DNA of 64,000 nt from an uncultured Eubacteriales bacterium (GTDB lineage Bacteria > Bacillota > Clostridia > Christensenellales > Aristaeellaceae), in contig ONJM01000001.1 of assembly GCA_900318145.1 (NCBI GenBank), forward strand, positions 331,456 to 395,455. The letters run 5' to 3'. Positions within the stretch are counted from its first letter, which is position 1. Every line of letters starts with the position of its first letter. Shown in pieces: positions 53,219 to 64,000 of the stretch. The notes under the pieces were generated by a model that ran no database searches, had not been told where the DNA came from, and was given only the letters and a program-made list of their open reading frames with translations. The position numbers were made by a program, and so were the translations under genes.

Positions 53219-53405
53219 AAGCATTGCAGAACTGCGAAGCTTACCGGAGGAAGCAAAGCTATTCAGGAAGCTATCGGAGCAGGGAGAAGAAATGAATTCG
53301 TTGTACATCACACACTACTATGTAAAAGGGACAGATCCAAGGAAGAATATCATGCTGCTCCCGGAGGAAGCGTTTCAGAAAGCTGCCGAACTGGCCTCAG
53401 CATAG
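53219..53405 (+). other. Short open stretch, possible tiny gene or remnant
   Basis: One frame (open from 53157 to a TAG at 53403-53405) encodes ELRSLPEEAKLFRKLSEQGE and an Ala-rich end. An ATG at 53292 preceded by GGGAGAAGA would give 37 residues. The coding nature is uncertain. Confidence 0.2.
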
Positions 53406-53659
53406 CTTTCTTCCTCCAAATTCAAGGTACAACTGACAACGGCATCAAAAAGCAGAGAGTCTTCATCGACTCTCACATTTTTCGTAAATTCCAAAAGCAT
53501 GTCTTCTATGTAAGCCGAATCCGGATACTTTACACGGGAGTATGTCAAATCCAGAAGCGAAAGGTGCTGGACAAGGTATTCTGATAATGATGCCCATATG
53601 GGCTGATAGCAGATTTCATATATGAACCGTTCTATTTCGTCTCGATAGGTGCCCAACAT
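53375..53659 (-). CDS. Small hypothetical protein
   Basis: This 94-residue acidic helical protein begins MLGTYRDEIERFIYEICYQP; no domain was recognised. GAGGAGGACAG lies just upstream of the ATG at 53659, supporting a real start. It is convergent with the short stretch at 53219-53405 and divergent from the defence operon promoter. Confidence 0.5.
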   Translation of the reverse strand: MLGTYRDEIERFIYEICYQPIWASLSEYLVQHLSLLDLTYSRVKYPDSAYIEDMLLEFTKNVRVDEDSLLFDAVVSCTLNLEEESYAEASSAAF

Positions 53660-53766
53660 TCTGTCCTCCTCTCGTGTCGAAGTGACCAACACATGGAATT
53701 ATAGCACGATGCCGGAGAATTTTCAATCTTAGCGAAAGTAAATTCTCCTATTCATGAAGATTTACC

Positions 53767-53796
53767 TTGTGATTTTGTTCTCGAATATGCTATAAT
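53767..53796 (+). promoter_or_regulatory. Promoter of the XRE-TcmP-radical SAM-BREX operon
   Basis: TTGTGA (53767-53772), 18 bases, perfect TATAAT (53791-53796), 51 bases before the XRE regulator. No other promoter was seen in the tight gaps downstream. Confidence 0.75.
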
Positions 53797-53847
53797 CGTT
53801 CAGTAGTCTCAATTTGATGTCACGTTCAGCATACTGGAGGTAACAAG

Positions 53848-54069
53848 ATGGAAGTCAGTTACAAAAAACTTTGGAAGATCCTGATTGACAAGGATATGAA
53901 GAAAAAGGATCTCCAAGCGGCAGCTGGCATTAGTTGGGCGTCCGTAACAAAGCTCTCAAAAGGCGAGACGGTCAGCCTGGAAGTATTGATGAAGATTTGC
54001 AAGGTCCTCAGATGTGATATTGGCGATATTATGGAGCTAATTCCAGAGGCGGATGAAGCGGCTAAGTAG
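53848..54069 (+). CDS. XRE family helix-turn-helix transcriptional regulator
   Basis: This 73-residue Cro/CI-type protein has the HTH KKKDLQAAAGISWASVTKLSKGE (about 18-40) and the typical LEVLMKICKVLRCDIGDIME. Such short regulators are often autorepressors. It occupies the first position of the defence operon, where many BREX loci carry BrxR or other regulators. GGAGG lies just before the ATG, and the next gene starts 14 bases downstream. Confidence 0.93.
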   Translation: MEVSYKKLWKILIDKDMKKKDLQAAAGISWASVTKLSKGETVSLEVLMKICKVLRCDIGDIMELIPEADEAAK

Positions 54070-54083
54070 TGGGGTGACATTGA

Positions 54084-55226
54084 ATGACAAACGGTAACAA
54101 CGACGAGATTATTAGCCTGGTCAGCCCTCACACGATTAAGAAGTTTGAACTGATTGAGGCGTATGTCGTTGCGTGGGCACATAAACTGTTGGAGTATGGC
54201 AGACGTAGCGGCAACTGCAATGGTATCGTTTTTATCGACTGCATGTGCAACAGCGGCGTGTATAGGGATGAAGAAACGGGAAAAATAGTTGAAGGGACAC
54301 CCATACGGGTGGCTCGTGTTCTTGCTGATGTCATGCGGGAACAAAACTATCAAGCGCAGCAAGCGTGGCTGTATTTCAATGATCTTTCGCAAGCCAAGAT
54401 CACTGAGTTAAAAAAGCATCTCCCTGATGATACTCGCAATTTCCATATCTATCCTTCAGTTGGCGATGGAAATGATCTTCTGAAGAGGATTGGAAGTAAG
54501 CTGAATCCTCAAACTAAGGTTCATTTTTTGCTGGTTTACGATCCGTTTCAGGCGACGATTGACTGGGCTGCTTTGTTGCCGTTCATCCGAAACTGGGGAG
54601 AAATCATATTAAACCACATGGTCTCGGATTCAATTCGTGCAGTATCGCAGGCAAAGAGGCCAGCAACTATCTCGAAGTATGAATCGACTTATCTTGCTAA
54701 GATTGAAGACCTGATTGACTTTGGGAGTGACCGAGACGCTTTTGAACAGAGGATACGAGACATCATCACTGCTCTAAATGGCGAGAATCATAAGCGTTAC
54801 TACATTGCATCGTATCCATTTTTCAACAGCAGGAACTCGGTTGTGTATAACCTCCTTCACTGCACAAGTAACATCGAAGGATTCAAACTCTATAAAAGCA
54901 CAGCTTGGTCTACTTTCGGTGACAGGTCTTCCGGAAAGAAGCCAACAAAGATTGATCCAAATCAGTTGACATTCGATTTTAGTGCTGGAGCCAGCGAACC
55001 GGTTATGACCACGACCACTGATGAGAGCTGCTACTATGTTCAGGACATTGTGAAGTTCGTTGTTGCGACCTTTTCCGGGAGGATGGATGTACCACTTAAC
55101 GAAGTATGGGCCGTTTTAGACGAGCACCCGATATTTCCATCAGATCTGTACAAAGATCAGATCAAGAAGCGTCTTAAAGAGCAAGGCTATAAAGTGCACC
55201 GGAGCTCTATTGATTTCGTAATGTAA
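54084..55226 (+). CDS. tcmP: Three-Cys-motif partner protein TcmP
   Basis: This is a 380-residue protein of the TcmP family, found next to a radical-SAM-like protein with a three-Cys motif. Visible features: the N-terminal HTIKKFELIEAYVVAWAHKL, then GIVFIDCMCNSGVY (D52, C53, C55), which resembles a methyltransferase or nuclease-like motif I, and LLVYDPFQATIDWAALLP. The C-terminal about 90 residues (from about 290) resemble a winged-helix/DNA-binding tail. The molecular function of the family is not established. It lies between the XRE gene (14 bases) and its partner (15 bases). Confidence 0.88.
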   Translation: MTNGNNDEIISLVSPHTIKKFELIEAYVVAWAHKLLEYGRRSGNCNGIVFIDCMCNSGVYRDEETGKIVEGTPIRVARVLADVMREQNYQAQQAWLYFNDLSQAKITELKKHLPDDTRNFHIYPSVGDGNDLLKRIGSKLNPQTKVHFLLVYDPFQATIDWAALLPFIRNWGEIILNHMVSDSIRAVSQAKRPATISKYESTYLAKIEDLIDFGSDRDAFEQRIRDIITALNGENHKRYYIASYPFFNSRNSVVYNLLHCTSNIEGFKLYKSTAWSTFGDRSSGKKPTKIDPNQLTFDFSAGASEPVMTTTTDESCYYVQDIVKFVVATFSGRMDVPLNEVWAVLDEHPIFPSDLYKDQIKKRLKEQGYKVHRSSIDFVM

Positions 55227-55241
55227 GCAGGAGTGAACAGA

Positions 55242-56027
55242 ATGGCAAAGGTCAAGGGATACATCCGAAGAAAATCGATGCTCTATGTGACGGGTGTCGA
55301 ATACGGGGATTACACCATGAACCACGTCCTGGGATGTGCGCATGGATGTAAGTACCCTTGCTATGCTTTTATGATGAAAAAGCGCTTTGGAAAAGTATCC
55401 TCTTACGAAGAATGGCTGGAGCCGTATCTGGTTGAGAACACTCTGGAGTTGTTGGATGCCGAGATACCGAAACTGAAGAATAGAATTGTTTCTGTGCAGC
55501 TCTGCTTTTCAACCGACCCGTTCATGTATGGTTATGACGAGATCTGTGAGATGAGCATGAACGCGATACGGAAGCTAAACGAGCACAGCATCACATGCAC
55601 AGTTCTGACGAAGGGGTTGTTGCCCATAGAACTGGCTGAACTCTCATCGAAAAACGAATATGGAATAACACTTATCTCGCTGACAGAAGCTTTCCGAAAA
55701 CGGATGGAACCCCATGCTGCGCCATATAAAGAACGGCTGGCAGCTCTCCGCGCTCTTCATGACCGAGGTTGCAGAACGTGGGTTAGCATCGAGCCTTATC
55801 CGACCCCCAACCTCGTGCGCCAGAATCTGGACAAGTTGTTGGAAGCAGTCTCTTTTGTGGATCGGATTATCTTCGGTAGGATGAACTATAGCAGAGAGGT
55901 TAGCTCTTTCCTAGAGCATAAGGTTTTTTACAATCGGTGTGCGAGACGCGTGATTAAATTCTGTGATGAGCACGGGATTGCTTATCACATTAAAGACGGA
56001 ACCCTGACTGAATTAGAAGATGACTGA
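55242..56027 (+). CDS. Radical-SAM-like three-Cys-motif protein, partner of TcmP
   Basis: This 261-residue protein has GCAHGCKYPCYAFMMKKR, i.e. C32, C36 and C40 spaced Cx3Cx3C, instead of the Cx3Cx2C usual in radical SAM enzymes. A TIM-barrel pattern follows (LCFSTDPFMYGYDEI, TVLTKGLLPIEL, YGITLISLTEAF, WVSIEPYPTPNL, RIIFGRMNYS), close to SplB/DUF5131-like radical SAM proteins. The ATG at 55242 has AGGAG nine bases upstream. It precedes brxA by 28 bases. Confidence 0.88.
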   Translation: MAKVKGYIRRKSMLYVTGVEYGDYTMNHVLGCAHGCKYPCYAFMMKKRFGKVSSYEEWLEPYLVENTLELLDAEIPKLKNRIVSVQLCFSTDPFMYGYDEICEMSMNAIRKLNEHSITCTVLTKGLLPIELAELSSKNEYGITLISLTEAFRKRMEPHAAPYKERLAALRALHDRGCRTWVSIEPYPTPNLVRQNLDKLLEAVSFVDRIIFGRMNYSREVSSFLEHKVFYNRCARRVIKFCDEHGIAYHIKDGTLTELEDD

Positions 56028-56055
56028 GGATTCCCTCGGAGGAGGATAAGGATAA

Positions 56056-56685
56056 ATGCTTGAAAAAGACAAAATCGTTCTGCGTGACGCCAGCCCATAC
56101 AACGCGGCTATTACGCGGGAACAGTTCCTGTTTTACGAAGTCAGAACCACGGCAAAGCTGGTTTATGAAGGGCTGAGCAATGATGAGGTTGTGGACCGCA
56201 TCGTAAAAGAAAACTTGTTTCAGTACCCGACAGAAAAATCCGTAAAGAAGATGGCCCTCGCCTGCCTCCGGAGGCTTGAAGCTCTCGAAGACCGGACCTT
56301 GGTAGAAGCCATCGCCGATCAGCCCAGCGACGTATCCAGACAGATCTGCCTCTACGCCATGATGCGCCAGTACCGCCTTGTCCAGGACTTTATGCTGACG
56401 GTCATCGGCGAGAAGTACAGAAAACTGGACAGTTCGTTTGGTAAGATAGACTTGAACATATTCTTCCAGCGCCTACAGGAGCAGGATGACTGGGTGGCCA
56501 CATGGAGCGAGAGCACTATCACAAAGCTCAAACAGGTGTTGCAGAAACTGCTGGTGGACAACGAGTATCTGGATAGCGCTGATGCCACCCGACTCAACCC
56601 CGTGCTCATCAGCCCGCTGCTTGAGAATGCGATCCGCGCAGACGGCCAGGAATACCTGCTCCCCGCCTTCAACTGTTTATCGTAA
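56056..56685 (+). CDS. brxA: BREX protein BrxA (DUF1819)
   Basis: This 209-residue helical protein matches the DUF1819/BrxA family: DASPYNAAITREQFLFYEVRTTA, NLFQYPTEKSVKKMALACL and LRRLEAL are typical. BrxA is a NusB-like-fold protein needed for phage resistance in BREX type 1. GGAGGAGGAT is upstream of the ATG. It is followed by brxB after 15 bases. Confidence 0.94.
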   Translation: MLEKDKIVLRDASPYNAAITREQFLFYEVRTTAKLVYEGLSNDEVVDRIVKENLFQYPTEKSVKKMALACLRRLEALEDRTLVEAIADQPSDVSRQICLYAMMRQYRLVQDFMLTVIGEKYRKLDSSFGKIDLNIFFQRLQEQDDWVATWSESTITKLKQVLQKLLVDNEYLDSADATRLNPVLISPLLENAIRADGQEYLLPAFNCLS

Positions 56686-56700
56686 GGAGAAACGCCGCAA

Positions 56701-57258
56701 ATGAGTGAGCTGATGCAAAGACTGGATAATCTCCGGGCGCTGATACAGACGCCCGAGTTCCTGGAAGGGAAAGGCCTCAGCAATGAGGTTAACATCCGCA
56801 TCTTCTGCTATGACCCAAAGCAGGAAATGGCGGTGCGCTATTTCACCGAAACACTGGTTACGGACCAGAGCCTGAACTGCCATGTGATCGAGTATAACCT
56901 CTACCGCGTCTTCCTCTCCATTTGCGACGATAAGCGCATCACCGACCGGGTCGCCCAGCAGGAGGAGAAAAAGGGAAAGCAGTTCGTGCTGGATCAGATG
57001 AAGCGCATGGCCAACAATACCGCCTTCGTGAACAAGATGCAGTATGAGCCGCACAACAAGGGCGACGTGCTACTGATCACCGGTGTTGGCGAAGCATTCC
57101 CCTTTATCCGGGTACATGCCCTGCTGGATGCTATGCAGCCGTATTTCTCCGACGTGCCTGTGCTGGTCATGTACCCCGGCACCTATGACGGCCACTACGT
57201 TAAACTGTTCGATAAGCTCACGCCCAATCCGTACTACCGGGCATTCAATGTGATTTGA
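56701..57258 (+). CDS. brxB: BREX protein BrxB (DUF1788)
   Basis: This 185-residue protein belongs to DUF1788/BrxB: NIRIFCYDPKQEMAVRYFTE, DVLLITGVGEAFPFIRVHALLDAMQ and VLVMYPGTYDGHYVKLFDKL are all family features. BrxB is essential for BREX function; its activity is unknown. It sits 14 bases before brxC. Confidence 0.95.
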   Translation: MSELMQRLDNLRALIQTPEFLEGKGLSNEVNIRIFCYDPKQEMAVRYFTETLVTDQSLNCHVIEYNLYRVFLSICDDKRITDRVAQQEEKKGKQFVLDQMKRMANNTAFVNKMQYEPHNKGDVLLITGVGEAFPFIRVHALLDAMQPYFSDVPVLVMYPGTYDGHYVKLFDKLTPNPYYRAFNVI

Positions 57259-57272
57259 GGAGGAGACGCCGC

Positions 57273-60200
57273 ATGAGAATACAGGACATGTTCGCAAAAG
57301 GCATTGATCGCCCGATTAACGGTGTCGTCAAGGTCAACCAGGACGAGCTGGATATCCTGGTGCAGGAACTGGATGAGTATGTCATCACCCGGGAGCTGAA
57401 GAAGCACATCATCACCTTCTTTAACAACTACCTGGAGTCTTTCAATGCTCCTACCGCAGATATCGGCGTATGGATTTCCGGCTTCTTCGGCAGTGGTAAA
57501 TCCCACTTTCTGAAGATGCTGTCCTACCTGCTGCAGAACCGCGAGGTGAACGGCGTCCGCACCGTGGAGCGCTTCCGCCATAAGCCCGAGCTGGCGGATG
57601 ACCCTGCGACCTTTATGCTGATTGACCGCGCGACCCGCTCCGGCCACACGGATACGATCCTGTTCAACATCGACATCGAGGGCTCCATCAACAAAGACAA
57701 GACCGCAGTGCTACGCGTCTTCGCCAAGATGTTCTATACCTATCTGGGCTACTACGGCGAAAACCTGAAGGTGGCCAAGCTGGAGCAGTTCATCGACCGC
57801 AAGGGCAAGACCGCTGAGTTCCGCCGCGTGTTTGAGGAGAAGAACGGCGCACCCTGGGTGGAGTCCCGTGACGCCTACGCCTTCTTTGAGGACGACATCG
57901 TTGCCACTCTCATGGAAGTGCTGGGCATGAGCGAACAGGCCGCTACCAACTGGTTCAACGGCGCGGAGACCGTGGAGACCTCCATCGCGCAGTTGGTGTC
58001 GGAGATCAAGGAATATGTGGACAGCAAGCCCGATGATTTCCGCCTGCTGTTCATGATCGACGAGGTCGGGCAGTATGTCGGCGGCGATACCGATCTCTTG
58101 ATCAACTTGCAGAGCCTGGTGGAAGATATCGGCAGTAAGTGCGGTGGCAAAGTCTGGGTGGTCTGCACTGGCCAGGAAGCCGTGGATGAAATCATCAAGA
58201 CCCGCGAGAACGAATTCTCCCGCATTCAGGCACGTTTCAAGACCCGCCTATCCCTGTCCTCCTCCTCTGCGGATGAGGTTATCCAGAAGCGTATTCTGCT
58301 GAAGAAGGACGATGTGGAGCCGCAGCTGGAGAAGGTTTACAACGCCAACGATTCTGTGCTCAGAAACCTGTTCTCCTTTACGGATGCCGTGCTGGATATC
58401 AAGGGCTTCAGCGGCCCCGGGGAGTTTGCCCGGAATTTCCCCTTCGTGCCGTATCAGTTTATCCTTATGCAGAAAGTCTTTGCCGAGATCCGCAAGCACG
58501 GCAATTCCGGTAAGCACCTCTCTGGTGGCGAGCGCTCCATGCTCTCCGGCTTCCAGGAAGCTGCGCAGAAGATTGAGGACAAGGACGAGTTCGCCCTGGC
58601 CCCGTTCTATCTGTTCTATGATACCGTGCACACTTTCCTGGACAGCTCCATCCGCCGCGTAATTGAGCGCTGCCAGCGCGCCGCCGATGACGGCAACGGT
58701 ATCGAGCCGCAGGACGTGAATGTGCTGAAGCTCCTGTATCTGGTGCGCTACGTGGATGACGTAAAGGCCAATCTGGACAACATCGTCATCCTGATGGCGG
58801 ACGACATCCGTCTGGACAAGATCACGATGCGGGAACAGGTGCGCGGCTCCCTGGACCGTCTGCTCAGTCAGAACTATATCGGCCGCACCGGCGATACTTA
58901 TAACTTCCTGACCGACGAGGAACAGGATATTCAGCGGGAGATCAAAAACACCGCTGTACCTAACTCCGATATCATCCGCAGCATCTCTCAGATGGTGTTC
59001 GCGGATATCTATACCGCAAAGAAATACCGCTATTCCGGTCGGTATGACTTCACCTTTGACCAGATGGTGGACGGTCAACCCAACGGCGTGCTGACTGGCG
59101 GCATGCTGCTCCGCGTGCTGACAGCGGCCTCTGACCCCGTGGAGAAGACCGAGATGCGTTTGGTGACCGAGTCCAAGGGACAGGCCATCATCGTGCTGGC
59201 AGACAACCCCTACTACGAATCACTGGAAAGCGCGATGAAGATCCGCAAGTATGTGAAGGGCCGCAACGTTAGCCAGCTGCCCAAGTCTGTGCAGGACATC
59301 ATCCGTGATCAGCAGGACGAGGCTGCGAATTACGAGATGCGCGCTGCCGCCTTCCTGGCGGAGGCCATCGCCACAGGCCGGTTCTATGTAGATGGCGAGT
59401 CCATCGATATTCACCCTGGCAACGTGTCCGTTTCCGAGATCGACACAGAGAAGCGCGACCTGAAGGTCAAGCAGGCCCGCGCCCGCAGCGTCATCGACCA
59501 GGCGCTTGAGTATCTGGTTTCTCATGTGTACAGCGACCTGGGGCTGATTACGAAATTCGCAGAAACAGATGATGATGTCCTTTCCATCCTGCGCGGCACT
59601 GAGATTGCCATTGAAGGAACAGAGCCCAACCGGGACGCTGCCGCCAAGGTGGAGGAATTCCTGGAGGTGCAGCACAACATGAACCGCAACACCACCATGG
59701 ACGATGTGCAGAAGCGTTACCAGGCTAAGCCCTACGGCTGGCGCGAGATCGACATCGCCGCTGTGGTGGCCATGCTGATCCAGCAGCAAAAGGTGACTAT
59801 CAAATACGGTGGCGTAACCATCCAGCCGGACAATCCGAAGCTGACGGACATGCTGCGCAAAAGGACAGAGATCGGCAGGACGACTATCTCCAAGCGTCAG
59901 ACGCCCCGTGTGCAGGACATCCGCGAAGTGCGCGAGTTCCTGCGGGACTTCTTCCCGGAGAAGATGAACGTGCCGGAGGATGAGGACGGCCTGATCCGCT
60001 ATATCGTGGATGCCTTCACCGGTGAGCTGCAGCATTATACTGACCTGCTGACCAAGTATCAGGGGCACAAGTATCCCGATCAGACCAAGGTGGACAAGGC
60101 CATCGCGCTGGTAAAGGATGTGCTGTCCCAGCAGAATGACAACATCGCCCTGATTCGCCGGGTCATCGAGCGCGAAGATGATCTCTACGCCATGCACGAA

Positions 60201-60890
60201 TCGATGCAGGAGGTGGAGGAATTCTTCAAGTCCCGCGTTACGCTGTTCGATTCCGCTGTACGCTTTGAGCAGGGCCTGCGCCATGACCTGGATTATATCG
60301 CCAAGGATACAGAGGCCAACGCTGCTCTCAATCGTATCCGGCTGATCACCATGGTGCAGTCTGGGGCCAAGTTTGACTACAGCCGTCTGCCGGAACTGAA
60401 TGAGCTGATGGCCAAGGTGAAGGCCAGCCACGACGCTATGCTGGATGCGAAACGCGAGGAGCTGCTGGAGATCGTCCGGCAGTGCATGGCGGACATTCAT
60501 CAGGCCGCTGGCGACGATCCAACCGCCCGCAACGTTTCCGCAACGGCAGATACCTTCTATGACCAGAAGAAACAGCAGATCGCCACAACGACAGAGCTGG
60601 CGCTGCTGGACGGATTGATCCCGCCTATGTGGCAGTACAAGGACACTACACTTGAAAAGATCGAGGCTATCATCAATCCTCCCAAGCCCAAGCCTCCTGT
60701 GGTGCCTGTTCCCGGTGGCGGGTCCACAATGAAAGAGCCGCCAAAGAAGATCTATAAGATCATGCCTCGCATGTCGCTTTTCCCGGCAAAGACACTGACC
60801 ACTGAAGACGAAATCGACGCTTATGTGGAGAAAATCCGCGCCAATATGAAGCAGCTGCTCCAAGGCTGTGATGGCATCAAACTGAGCTAA
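57273..60890 (+). CDS. brxC: BREX protein BrxC (AAA+ P-loop ATPase)
   Basis: This 1205-residue ATPase has Walker A WISGFFGSGKSHFLKML (K76) and a Walker B around residue 262 (FMIDEVGQYVGG). It is the expected size of BrxC. RIQDMFAKGIDRPINGVVKV is a conserved N-terminus. BrxC is required both for phage exclusion and host methylation. The ATG at 57273 is chosen by the GAGGAGGAG eight bases upstream; an earlier in-frame codon at 57255 overlaps brxB. Codon use is GC-rich, unlike the TcmP pair. Confidence 0.97.
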   Translation: MRIQDMFAKGIDRPINGVVKVNQDELDILVQELDEYVITRELKKHIITFFNNYLESFNAPTADIGVWISGFFGSGKSHFLKMLSYLLQNREVNGVRTVERFRHKPELADDPATFMLIDRATRSGHTDTILFNIDIEGSINKDKTAVLRVFAKMFYTYLGYYGENLKVAKLEQFIDRKGKTAEFRRVFEEKNGAPWVESRDAYAFFEDDIVATLMEVLGMSEQAATNWFNGAETVETSIAQLVSEIKEYVDSKPDDFRLLFMIDEVGQYVGGDTDLLINLQSLVEDIGSKCGGKVWVVCTGQEAVDEIIKTRENEFSRIQARFKTRLSLSSSSADEVIQKRILLKKDDVEPQLEKVYNANDSVLRNLFSFTDAVLDIKGFSGPGEFARNFPFVPYQFILMQKVFAEIRKHGNSGKHLSGGERSMLSGFQEAAQKIEDKDEFALAPFYLFYDTVHTFLDSSIRRVIERCQRAADDGNGIEPQDVNVLKLLYLVRYVDDVKANLDNIVILMADDIRLDKITMREQVRGSLDRLLSQNYIGRTGDTYNFLTDEEQDIQREIKNTAVPNSDIIRSISQMVFADIYTAKKYRYSGRYDFTFDQMVDGQPNGVLTGGMLLRVLTAASDPVEKTEMRLVTESKGQAIIVLADNPYYESLESAMKIRKYVKGRNVSQLPKSVQDIIRDQQDEAANYEMRAAAFLAEAIATGRFYVDGESIDIHPGNVSVSEIDTEKRDLKVKQARARSVIDQALEYLVSHVYSDLGLITKFAETDDDVLSILRGTEIAIEGTEPNRDAAAKVEEFLEVQHNMNRNTTMDDVQKRYQAKPYGWREIDIAAVVAMLIQQQKVTIKYGGVTIQPDNPKLTDMLRKRTEIGRTTISKRQTPRVQDIREVREFLRDFFPEKMNVPEDEDGLIRYIVDAFTGELQHYTDLLTKYQGHKYPDQTKVDKAIALVKDVLSQQNDNIALIRRVIEREDDLYAMHESMQEVEEFFKSRVTLFDSAVRFEQGLRHDLDYIAKDTEANAALNRIRLITMVQSGAKFDYSRLPELNELMAKVKASHDAMLDAKREELLEIVRQCMADIHQAAGDDPTARNVSATADTFYDQKKQQIATTTELALLDGLIPPMWQYKDTTLEKIEAIINPPKPKPPVVPVPGGGSTMKEPPKKIYKIMPRMSLFPAKTLTTEDEIDAYVEKIRANMKQLLQGCDGIKLS

Positions 60891-60901
60891 GGGGTGTACT
60901 C

Positions 60902-63900
60902 ATGGATAAGAACGCAATCAAGAAATACGCGGTGTGGGCGCGGCGAGAATTGATCGACCGCGTGTCCAAGCGCGCCGCCGTTTATGGCATCACCGAAAAG
61001 GATATGGGCAATCCCAATGCGGACAGCGTGAACGGCCACCTGCTGACTGCTGCAGAAAAGCGGCAGCGGCAGGCATTGATTCGTCGTATCCAGGAGAAGG
61101 GCTATCAGCAGGTGATGGAAGAAGTGGCCTACACCTGGTTTAACCGTTTCGCCGCCCTGCGGTTCATGGAGGTCAACGGCTACCTGCCCACCCACATCAG
61201 GGTATTCACGGATGACGAAGGTCGGTTCAAACCGCAGATTCTGGCGGAGGCGATCCATTTGGAGCTTGATGGCCTGAGCATGGAAAAGGTTTATCAGCTG
61301 AAGGACGCCAATCAGGAGGAGGAGCTTTTCAAATACCTGCTGATCGTACAGTGTAATGCCCTGAACAGTATCCTGCCCGGCATGTTCCAGAAGATCGAAG
61401 ACTATACCGAGCTGCTGCTGCCGGACTACCTTCTGCGTGAGGGCAGCGTCATTGAGCAGATGATCACCCTGATCCCGGAGGACGACTGGAAGGATCAGGT
61501 GCAGATCATCGGATGGCTCTATCAGTACTACAATACGGAACCGAAAGATAAGGTCTTCGCCGACCTGAAACGTAATATCAAGATCAGCAAGCAGAACATC
61601 CCTGCCGCCACGCAGCTGTTTACCCCGGACTGGATCGTCCATTACATGGTGGAAAACAGCCTGGGCCGCCTGTGGGTGGAAGGGCACCCCTCTGCCCGAG
61701 ACAAGTACCTGCCCGCCCATAATGAGGACGGGTCTGTCCGTGTGGAAAAAGGCAAGTGGAACTATTATCTGGAAGAAGCTGAGCAGGAGCCGGAGGTACA
61801 GGCGCAGTTGGCGGATATCCGCAAGCAGTATGCCGCCCTGAAACCGGAAGAGATTCTCGTCATCGATCCCTGCGCCGGTTCCGGACACATTCTCTGCGTG
61901 CTCTTTGATGTTCTGGTCAATATCTATGAGGACTACGGTTATACCGCCCGCGAAGCGGCGGTCAGCATTGTACAGAACAATTTGTGGGGGCTGGACATTG
62001 ATGACCGCGCTGCTCAGTTGGCATATTTTGCCGTCATGATGAAAGCCCGGCAATATGACCGGCGTTTCTTCAGAAAGGGTGTACAGCCGCATGTCTATGC
62101 CATTCAGGAGAGCAACGGTATCAACCGGGAACATCTGAACTATCTAGGGCGTGGCATGAGCGACATTGAGCGCAACAATGCTGTTACCCAGATGAATGCC
62201 CTGCTGGACGAGTTTATCGACGCCAAGGAGTACGGCTCCATCCTACAGCCCAGGGAATATGACTGGGCTTTGTTGTTGCGCTTAGTGGATGATACCACAC
62301 CGATGCAGCAGATGAGTTTTGGCGAGGCGGGGCTGGACGCTACGCAGGCAGAGCTTCTGTTGATGATTGCGCAGGGGCAGGCGCTGGCGCAGAAATATCA
62401 TGCGGTGGTGACGAATCCGCCGTATATGAATCCTGGCAACTCAGGTGGCGGATTAGCCGGATATGTTAAAAAGTATTATTCCGACAGCAGAGCAGATATG
62501 TTTGCTGTGTTTATTGAGCATTGCCAAAAGATGCTACAAAATGGTGGATTCCAGGGAATGATTACCATGCATGCCTGGATGTTCCTATCAAGTTTTGAAA
62601 GTTTACGTCAAAAGCTACAGGCAGTAACAATTGTCAATATGGCCCATTTAGGGACTCGCGCATTCGAAGAAATCGGTGGTGAAGTTGTGCAAACCACTAC
62701 ATTCGTTATTCGCAAGTTCAATTTATTGAAATATCGTGGTTTATATTATAGATTACTGGGTCCCAACACGCAAAACGGTAAGGAAAACATGTTTCTTTCT
62801 GGACAGAATAGATATTTCGCATGTCAAGAAAGTTTCTCGCATATACCTGGAGCTCCTGTAGCGTATTGGATCGGAAGTGCATACTATAACGCTTTCTCAC
62901 ATTCCAATCTTGATAAAAGCGGCTATTCTTTCCAAGGAATTATCACAGGCGATGTGGATCGTTATCTTCGCTTATGGCATGAGATATGTTTTGATGATAT
63001 TAGTTTTGGAGAGACTGATTATAACTTGCTGACAACTATAGAGACCTACTTCCCATATATCAAAGGTGGCACATTTAGGAAGTGGGCAGGTAATAATGAC
63101 TATGTTATCCATTGGACAGATAATGGAAGTGGTCTGGTTAGATCCCGAACCGAGAATCGCCATATGTTCCTCAAGCAGGGCATATCCTGGTCTTTGATTG
63201 CTACTCAAGCCTTCTCGTTTAGATATTTTGGTGACGGATTTTTGTGCGATGTTTCAGGCTCAAGCTATTATCCGACTGATACGCACATGGTTAATTACAT
63301 CCTTGGGTTTCTCAATTCAGTTGTTTGTTCGGAACTCGTCCATATTATCAATCCCACTATCAATCTCAATATCCGGGATATTCTAATGATGCCTCTCATC
63401 AGTAAGCAGCAGGAACGCGTTAACATAATTGTTAAAGCATGCGTAACAGAATCAGTACGAGACTGGGACGCCTTTGAAACCTCCTGGGACTTCCAGCGAC
63501 ACCCCCTCGTCACCCCGGCCATCGACCAGCACTACATGCGCCTTGCCGACTGCTGGCGCGACTGGGAGAAGGCCTGCAACGAGCGCTTTGCCCAGCTGAA
63601 GGCAAATGAGGAAGAGCTAAACCGCATTTTCATTGGAATCTACGGTCTGCAGGACGAGCTGACCCCAGAGGTGGATGACAAGGACGTGACTGTTCGTAAG
63701 GCTGACCTTGGCCGCGACATCCGCAGTCTGATCTCCTATGCCGTGGGTTGTATGCTGGGCCGCTACTCGCTGGACAAGCCCGGTCTGGCCTTTGCAGGCG
63801 GCAACTGGCAGGAGTGGCTGGCGCAGCAGGACGCCATGACCTATGCGCCGGATAAGGACGGCATCCTGCCCATCACGGATGATGAGTACTTCTATGACGA

Positions 63901-64000
63901 CATCGTGACCATGTTCGTGGATTGGGTGAAGACGGTCTACGGTGCAGCCACGCTGGAAGAGAACCTGACCTTTATCGCCAATGCGCTGGGTGGTAAGGGC
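60902..64000 (+). CDS. pglX: BREX type 1 adenine-specific DNA methyltransferase PglX (BrxX), cut by the window end
   Basis: The frame from ATG 60902 stays open to base 64000, giving 1033 codons without a stop. The N-terminus is MDKNAIKKYAVWARRELIDR, typical of PglX. The SAM motif I is IDPCAGSGHI (D322 onward) and the catalytic motif IV is VTNPPYMNPG (N505-Y508), an N6-adenine methyltransferase. After motif IV a long target-recognition region follows, then a conserved helical C-terminal part (SYAVGCMLGRYSLDKPG). It methylates host DNA at a non-palindromic site, marking it as self. pglZ and brxL are expected just beyond the window. About 62460-63470 is clearly more AT-rich than the flanks. Confidence 0.97.
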   Translation, partial: MDKNAIKKYAVWARRELIDRVSKRAAVYGITEKDMGNPNADSVNGHLLTAAEKRQRQALIRRIQEKGYQQVMEEVAYTWFNRFAALRFMEVNGYLPTHIRVFTDDEGRFKPQILAEAIHLELDGLSMEKVYQLKDANQEEELFKYLLIVQCNALNSILPGMFQKIEDYTELLLPDYLLREGSVIEQMITLIPEDDWKDQVQIIGWLYQYYNTEPKDKVFADLKRNIKISKQNIPAATQLFTPDWIVHYMVENSLGRLWVEGHPSARDKYLPAHNEDGSVRVEKGKWNYYLEEAEQEPEVQAQLADIRKQYAALKPEEILVIDPCAGSGHILCVLFDVLVNIYEDYGYTAREAAVSIVQNNLWGLDIDDRAAQLAYFAVMMKARQYDRRFFRKGVQPHVYAIQESNGINREHLNYLGRGMSDIERNNAVTQMNALLDEFIDAKEYGSILQPREYDWALLLRLVDDTTPMQQMSFGEAGLDATQAELLLMIAQGQALAQKYHAVVTNPPYMNPGNSGGGLAGYVKKYYSDSRADMFAVFIEHCQKMLQNGGFQGMITMHAWMFLSSFESLRQKLQAVTIVNMAHLGTRAFEEIGGEVVQTTTFVIRKFNLLKYRGLYYRLLGPNTQNGKENMFLSGQNRYFACQESFSHIPGAPVAYWIGSAYYNAFSHSNLDKSGYSFQGIITGDVDRYLRLWHEICFDDISFGETDYNLLTTIETYFPYIKGGTFRKWAGNNDYVIHWTDNGSGLVRSRTENRHMFLKQGISWSLIATQAFSFRYFGDGFLCDVSGSSYYPTDTHMVNYILGFLNSVVCSELVHIINPTINLNIRDILMMPLISKQQERVNIIVKACVTESVRDWDAFETSWDFQRHPLVTPAIDQHYMRLADCWRDWEKACNERFAQLKANEEELNRIFIGIYGLQDELTPEVDDKDVTVRKADLGRDIRSLISYAVGCMLGRYSLDKPGLAFAGGNWQEWLAQQDAMTYAPDKDGILPITDDEYFYDDIVTMFVDWVKTVYGAATLEENLTFIANALGGKG

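Follow-up and report, generated by a model that had tools for sequence, protein, structure and literature searches.

The BREX (bacteriophage exclusion) operon at the end of a 64,000-nucleotide stretch of contig ONJM01000001.1 (assembly GCA_900318145.1, an uncultured Eubacteriales bacterium; the stretch is hereafter called the window, and positions are given in its coordinates) differs from type 1 BREX in being headed not by a lone XRE regulator but by the three genes XRE, tcmP and rSAM, the last encoding a radical S-adenosylmethionine (SAM) protein. Comparison of related loci reveals TcmP and rSAM as a mobile gene pair, accompanied in the window by what appears to be its own XRE. The explanation preferred here, given a probability of roughly 0.5 as a whole, is that a mobile XRE–TcmP–rSAM segment was exchanged into the BREX operon and would supply a second, nucleic-acid-modifying layer of defence. 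The elements of the operon are as follows:

53767–53796, plus strand: promoter-like site of the operon, TTGTGA-N18-TATAAT, 10/12 with TG before the second hexamer, a consensus match only
53848–54069, plus strand: XRE, an HTH_26 regulator of 73 amino acids (HTH_26, E-value 8e-25)
54084–55226, plus strand: TcmP of clade A, 380 amino acids (TIGR04474, E 8.8e-27)
55242–56027, plus strand: rSAM (PF04055, E 1.3e-11)
56028–56055, plus strand: spacer with a ribosome-binding site, apparently BREX-derived (homology with locus L161 from 56029)
56056–56685, plus strand: brxA (PF08849, E 3.6e-62)
56701–57258, plus strand: brxB (PF08747, E 4e-38)
57273–60890, plus strand: brxC (NF033441, 1174 bits)
60902–64000, plus strand: pglX, cut by the contig end (NF033452, BREX-1 PglX, 1183 bits)

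The exchange at the head of the operon is traced by two BREX loci. L143, which belongs to a different genus of the same family, encodes BrxB and BrxC with 100% and 99% amino acid identity to those of the window (184 residues of BrxC compared), and its DNA is 90% identical over 1.7 kb, with a weaker match at the 5′ end of brxA; upstream of brxA it has a different XRE (49%) and no pair. The match to L161 starts at window position 56029, two bases past the rSAM stop and within the stop codon of the XRE of L161, and from there runs on across the spacer and into brxA with 80% nucleotide identity, the exchange junction being the left edge of the spacer 56028–56055. The G+C content at third codon positions is 0.50–0.55 in XRE, TcmP and rSAM, 0.69–0.76 in brxA to brxC and 0.62 in pglX. 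Since L143 has an XRE only and the homology with L161 begins after the rSAM stop, the simplest interpretation has XRE–TcmP–rSAM taking the place of a native single XRE that headed this BREX operon. In an XRE tree of 38 rows the window XRE falls, with modest support, among the XREs of TcmP–rSAM loci, which favours exchange of the three genes together. Insertion of the pair behind an XRE native to BREX is disfavoured by the same grouping, weakly supported as it is. As the outcome of such an exchange, the BREX genes now lie behind TcmP and rSAM, all on the same strand and separated by short gaps.

The seven genes follow each other in the order XRE, tcmP, rSAM, brxA, brxB, brxC and pglX with gaps of 14, 15, 28, 15, 14 and 11 bases, and the order, strand and gap sizes given in an earlier note on this DNA were reproduced exactly from the coordinates of the open reading frame (ORF) list. 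The family assignments are secure for XRE, BrxA, BrxB, BrxC and PglX and good for TcmP. The rSAM start was taken as ATG at 55242, the list also holding a GTG alternative at 55233 and, for brxC, a TTG alternative at 57255. The same note had placed a single promoter before XRE and no terminator inside the operon. The 10/12 site agrees with this, the sole other plus-strand promoter-like site between 53200 and 61200 being weaker (9/12, at 54084, the TcmP start); on both strands 11 such sites were counted against a shuffle mean of 7.2. The plus-strand scan from XRE through brxC found no terminator-like site apart from a stem of 5 pairs within brxC, at 60761, and thus none that separates XRE, TcmP, rSAM and brxA. 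Because the promoter and terminator sites are consensus matches, we infer cotranscription from XRE to pglX from the layout only.

Beyond the window, relatives of rSAM were collected from viral contigs (18) and from genomes (379, of which the best 80 by similarity were kept), and the resulting 99 viral and genome loci were reduced to 81 by dropping 6 named repeats, 2 loci without a usable rSAM call (L026 and L039) and 10 with rSAMs more than 97% identical; the ranking of the genome loci by similarity is a weak point of the counts that follow. In 80/81 non-redundant loci the gene immediately before rSAM encodes a TcmP, and it overlaps the rSAM start in 56 of the 80, as judged from longest-frame starts (in the window a gap of 15 bases separates them). 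Two TcmP genes, a long copy of clade A or B and a short canonical copy, precede rSAM in L022, L023, L024, L027, L062, L072, L090, L091, L098, L099, L101 and L108; the L098 copy matches PDC-M41A of PADLOC.

A gene of restriction-modification (R-M) type lies in the same-strand cluster with the pair in 43/81 loci. Downstream, such a gene occupies position +1 in 37/77 loci, +2 in 23/63, +3 in 10/56 and +4 in 6/48, falling to 1/35, 1/20 and 1/10 at +5, +6 and +7; upstream, the counts are 6/74, 4/67, 3/62 and 2/53 at −1 to −4 and 0/80 at −5 to −8. The gap to the following R-M gene is 1–20 bases in 20/36 cases. Among the 25 commonest families listed for the first downstream gene are N6_N4_Mtase (24/79) and N6_Mtase (6/79) and, from PADLOC at E 1e-20, MTase_III (23/79), MTase_I (5/79), PDC-S14 (4/79) and PDC-S53 (3/79). 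The systems adjoining the pair comprise type I, II, IIG, III and IV restriction systems and Hma. Individually named partners are a type III methyltransferase with Res, GmrSD, a HindIII-like enzyme with a type II methyltransferase, HsdM, HsdM with HsdR, MvaI/BcnI, BsuBI/PstI with an Eco57I methyltransferase, HmaA and a DrmD-like helicase; MmeI is found upstream in 4/78 loci. R-M genes precede the pair in L059, L071 and L103 (MmeI) and in L060 (type III).

Mapped onto the rSAM tree, partner type requires 26 changes, against a minimum of 8 and a mean of 39.2 for shuffled labels; since 26 falls below the shuffled mean, the partners are partly inherited. The nearest relative of the window rSAM, that of L033 (81%), precedes a type III system, and L034 and L035, with rSAMs 98% identical, have different next genes. 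In L035 (2613–4190) the ORF directly after the pair matches both the MvaI/BcnI endonuclease family and a phage integrase. Of 18 relatives of one type III methyltransferase, 6 are preceded by at least rSAM (4 of these being already counted among the loci, and the upstream side of some others being short), so that the pair looks optional at type III systems. TcmP gave no match in plasmids at E 1e-5, and its single match in phages, at 85% identity, was to MT838542.1, an unannotated contig of human faecal origin. Four further loci, L212, L213, L214 and L215, hold rSAM relatives without TcmP, one beside a transposase-like protein and one within a frame of about 600 amino acids; they possibly represent a transposon-borne rSAM branch. 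As 43/81 loci carry an R-M-type gene in the cluster, the pair seems best regarded as a portable partner to methylation-based defence systems, one that is also found on its own.

How often the pair accompanies BREX was followed from BrxA. PF08849 matches were present in 31/391 genomes of the class and 15/308 of the family, and the searches gave 53 distinct places, of which 48 were examined (the window included) and 5 were not. The loci reach at most 1500 bases upstream and several are cut by contig ends, for which reason the pair may be missed in some of them. TcmP–rSAM lies upstream of brxA in 2/48 loci, the window and contig C346 of genome G285. The latter copy is decayed: an N-terminal piece of TcmP fuses into rSAM from about residue 81 with broken frames, and downstream of it brxA and brxB are open frames and brxC runs to the contig end. 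To judge from motif I, its TcmP piece looks like clade B and the window TcmP belongs to clade A; because the clades differ, BREX has probably taken up such a pair at least twice. An XRE (44–79% identity) stands before brxA in 10/48 loci, one genome contributing two copies, and among close BREX relatives in viral contigs XRE lies directly before brxA in 5/5 and the pair occurs in 0/5.

A BREX-specific accessory is thereby rejected, the pair being present in 2/48 genome BrxA loci (one of them decayed) and in 0/5 viral ones. The earlier note had made the pair an accessory of this BREX system; its place in the operon stands by layout, and its specificity for BREX does not. In the related genomes examined, the pair was found beside brxA almost only here. 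The earlier note had named, as what would speak against it, a pair located next to brxA in this strain alone and otherwise at unrelated loci. The first part nearly holds, but the other loci are not random, with R-M-type neighbours in 43/81.

The BREX genes themselves follow the type 1 order, brxA-brxB-brxC-pglX-pglZ-brxL, as far as the contig extends: brxA, brxB, brxC and BREX-1 pglX stand in order on one strand, and the window ends with its contig inside pglX. The last 76 bases are common to the ends of the window contig (C61) and of C57 of the same genome, and C57 (L194:11227–13748) carries the C-terminus of pglX, with a frameshift near its end, and shortly thereafter brxL (687 amino acids). 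The window system thus agrees with type 1 BREX also in brxL, located on another contig, the order across contigs being inferred. Elsewhere in the assembly, the PglZ family PF08665 matches only a 492-amino-acid frame and, below threshold, a 459-amino-acid frame. In the sister loci L196 and L197, brxC is followed by pglX, a protein of about 875 amino acids in the pglZ place, a second pglX and brxL, and L195 has the same order up to the second pglX; the protein of about 875 amino acids is pglZ by position only. A BREX system that truly lacks pglZ is the less likely reading, since the sister loci fill that place and the window contig breaks within pglX. A gap in the 88%-complete assembly is the likelier cause of the missing pglZ, and two similar pglX genes, as in the sister loci, would account for such a break.

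The two pglX genes of L195–L197 share stretches of 72–92% nucleotide identity, and recombination between specificities is possible there. Contig C19 of the window genome (L003:781–2977) encodes a 491-amino-acid PglZ-domain protein beside a 246-amino-acid protein that is BrxA-like by eye, and this is perhaps a second BREX-related locus.

The window rSAM scores 45.4 bits against PF04055 (cut-off 29.5) and has the motif GC[SA]HGCx[YF]PCYA, whose three cysteines, spaced CxxxCxxxC rather than the CxxxCxxC usual in radical SAM enzymes, are invariant in alignments of 17 and of 59 sequences that include the window; the three-cysteine, radical-SAM-like identity proposed in the earlier note is thus upheld. 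The protein is highly conserved (mean column identity 65%). TcmP and three-cysteine proteins are otherwise paired as TIGR04474 with DUF5131 (Gp37/Gp68). The window agrees in having a TcmP above the TIGR04474 cut-off and a small three-cysteine protein adjoining it, but differs in that this partner is a PF04055 protein that stays below the DUF5131 cut-off (19.4 against 28.9 bits) and matches PDC-M30B (5e-4) and PDC-M41B (8e-5) of PADLOC only weakly. It resembles rSAM_PA0069, mobile pair B and Rv2578c more closely, with scores that fall far short of the cut-offs of these families.

The window TcmP reaches 94.7 bits against TIGR04474 (cut-off 53), and 7/7 other TcmPs tested from the clades seen also exceed that cut-off. 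TcmP is less uniform in sequence (mean column identity 35%, clade B being 14–20% identical to the window protein), and the residues invariant across clades A and B include D52, G58, D153 and P154. By hhalign against a profile of six sequences of RlmJ, the 23S rRNA m6A2030 methyltransferase, the profile of all TcmP clades pooled gave Prob 96 and P 7.6e-9 (reversed RlmJ control, P 0.62), clades A and B together P 1.1e-6 and the short canonical TcmPs P 1.6e-7. Taken singly, clade B gave 0.001 and clade A, that of the window, 0.016, with a helicase control at 0.048; comparison of TcmP with a single RlmJ sequence gave Prob 7.8 in a different register. In a control panel run with a first RlmJ set that contained one wrong-frame row (L171), the next best was cluster c14, taken to carry rRNA m5U methyltransferase and TRAM domains, at P 1e-4 (0.13 and 0.15 with single clades), followed by a DNA methyltransferase cluster (0.0012), one other cluster (0.01) and the remainder at 0.036 or above.

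The similarity starts at an N-terminal helix, takes in SAM motif I and reaches the DP motif, where TcmP has DP[YF] and RlmJ DPP, and motif I of clade A reads DCMCNSG as against the FAGxG form. TcmP may therefore be considered to have an RlmJ-like, methyltransferase-type profile, strong for the pooled clades and weak for clade A alone; its C-terminal part, as we read the sequence, looks like a winged helix. Sequence searches of the PDB gave for A2 one match, a thiazole kinase at E 0.028, for A3 none, for A6 nothing better than E 1 (the matches being five RlmJ entries and an unrelated chain), and for the canonical TcmP and three-cysteine partner of L006 nothing below E 0.04.

The gene upstream of XRE, on the opposite strand, bears on how the operon may be switched:

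53378–53692, minus strand: N-terminal relic of a divergent HExxH protease gene (M78/ImmA-IrrE, CapP-like), found by tblastn
53698–53726, minus strand: promoter-like site facing the relic, TTGAAA-N17-TATAAT, 11/12, a consensus match only

The relic corresponds to the first 80–100 residues of the protease and is 40–62% identical to the proteases of relatives over 68–89 amino acids, mostly 51–62% over 80; tblastn found no further match to the rest of the gene in the window. The protease cluster, mostly divergent upstream proteins (the member in L067 is a downstream fragment), has HExxH in 17/27 ORFs, the window relic and same-contig repeats included in that total, and these are 16 HExxH ORFs of 623–684 amino acids and one shorter HExxH frame. 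One intact representative matches capP of PADLOC at E 1e-12. The nearest upstream gene has an M78 domain in 6/78 loci and an S24 domain in 2/78; on a single-cluster reading these are loci with a different M78-like or S24-like upstream regulator, and the six with M78 may include members of the protease cluster.

CapH+CapP, a small helix-turn-helix (HTH) repressor with an HExxH protease, is described in PMC13373217 as a DNA-damage-responsive controller of adjacent defence operons. Some relatives, for instance L098 and L110, likewise have a small HTH protein and a divergent CapP-like protease gene heading defence operons. The arrangement differs from CapH+CapP, CapW/BrxR and CapK+CapS in the two additional SAM-enzyme genes, and the window retains only a relic of the protease instead of an intact one. 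The resemblance to CapH+CapP is one of layout and protease type only, and because the protease is truncated, the window XRE is probably deaf to its signal.

In the preferred explanation, XRE, together with the protease where present, would act as the switch; in the window genome the truncated protease would leave XRE probably unresponsive to that signal. TcmP would be an RlmJ-like SAM-dependent methyltransferase with a putative DNA- or RNA-binding C-terminal part, and rSAM would cleave SAM by means of an iron-sulphur cluster. The two are proposed to act jointly on nucleic acid, TcmP picking the target and rSAM performing the chemistry, and the pair, made together with restriction or BREX genes, would form a second, portable anti-phage layer. 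The earlier note had suggested a nucleic-acid modifier, and this is plausible given the methyltransferase-type profile of TcmP and the radical-SAM nature of its partner; the substrate of the pair and the direction of its effect are conjectured.

Several results weigh against this explanation. In the XRE tree, L147, a BREX locus without the pair, also falls in the TcmP–rSAM group, and three XREs from TcmP–rSAM loci fall among BREX-only ones. The R-M calls were made with ten hidden Markov models (HMMs) built from clusters mostly seen beside the pair, helicases included, although they were applied to all positions. Even with hand labels, 37/81 loci have no assigned R-M gene (38 by HMM alone), so that the pair can stand alone, and R-M-type genes at −1 (6/74) mean that it is not always the head of an operon. 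In a sample not ranked by similarity, rSAM was found at E 1e-30 in 14/398 genomes (13 besides that of the window); these 13 genomes yielded 14 loci, TcmP being present at 9 and an R-M gene lying next door at 3 of the latter. The pair has non-defence neighbours as well, such as a symporter and BacA. An XRE relative occurs in only 23/81 loci and the protease cluster in only 17/81, which shows that the switch is not a fixed part, and the RlmJ likeness is weak for clade A, to which the window TcmP belongs.

The loci without an R-M gene also lend themselves to another account, in which the pair is a free-standing antiphage unit (PDC-M30 or PDC-M41) that hitch-hikes independently, its tight spacing stemming from the packing of genes in islands and from common promoters, with no interaction in function. 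The window TcmP matches PDC-M30A (E 1.7e-13) and PDC-M41A (E 3e-9), PDC presumably denoting a defence candidate family in PADLOC. The available part of PMC9252829 contains no mention of its meaning. In PMC10855318, PDC-M30 is called in 32 strains of P. aeruginosa, and an expression table for S. meliloti in PMC12445080 lists a TcmP gene and the gene of the Hna defence helicase. Mere packing fits poorly with the sharp +1 peak of R-M-type genes, with the 1–20-base gaps to the next R-M gene (20/36) and with first downstream families that are, among the 25 commonest listed, mostly DNA methyltransferases, even if PDC-S14 and PDC-S53 are there too; such hitch-hiking is considered possible, on the doubtful side.

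A role confined to control is unlikely. TcmP, rSAM, XRE and protease would then only sense or time the expression of downstream defence genes, without antiphage activity of their own, in the manner of CapH+CapP, CapW/BrxR and CapK+CapS, named controllers which, according to PMC13373217, stand at the head of defence operons of several kinds. At the window operon, the exchange did swap a regulator for XRE–TcmP–rSAM, the protease cluster is present in 17/81 loci, and M78 (6/78) or S24 (2/78) domains occur in the nearest upstream gene. Two SAM enzymes would, however, be unusual in a switch; XRE relatives are limited to 23/81 loci, 37/81 lack an assigned R-M gene, and in L059, L071 and L103 (MmeI) and L060 (type III) the pair comes after the R-M genes.

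Since both enzymes of the pair, like PglX and the R-M methyltransferases, should need SAM, the pair might instead be a general guard that senses phage attack on SAM or on a methyltransferase and then acts on nucleic acid as a backup effector. According to PMC11580459, the SAM lyase of phage T3 and Ocr block BREX and R-M alike, and a backup-effector model is proposed for PARIS beside BREX in PMC12839542. This reading is quite improbable; if it is true, type I, II, III and IV systems as well as BREX would all be served by a single portable cassette. It is likewise improbable that the pair, by modifying DNA or by an action on the restriction machinery, prevents self-restriction after DNA damage or during establishment in a new host, for which its frequent place beside methylation-based systems, the methyltransferase-type profile of TcmP and the damage-responsive-type regulators linked at some loci would speak, since some BREX and type III relatives lack the pair and it also occurs alone.

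TcmP-type proteins are already known among the PADLOC candidate families PDC-M30 and PDC-M41. A literature search for TcmP together with radical SAM, with supplements and preprints outside its scope, found no paper, and no function of the TcmP family was found in the literature searched. The main text of the 2026 Nucleic Acids Research survey of BREX (PMC12839542), to which the search was limited, makes no mention of TcmP, radical SAM or DUF5131, in accordance with the statement in the earlier note that no named BREX subtype is known to include the pair.

Controllers that many defence systems have in common are known; two SAM enzymes forming a portable pair common to many methylation-based systems would be a part of a new kind. 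The RlmJ-like profile would provide a first concrete hypothesis for TcmP, that of methyl transfer to a nucleic-acid base, and the effect of the pair can be tested directly, close relatives among the BREX operons being found both with it and without it.

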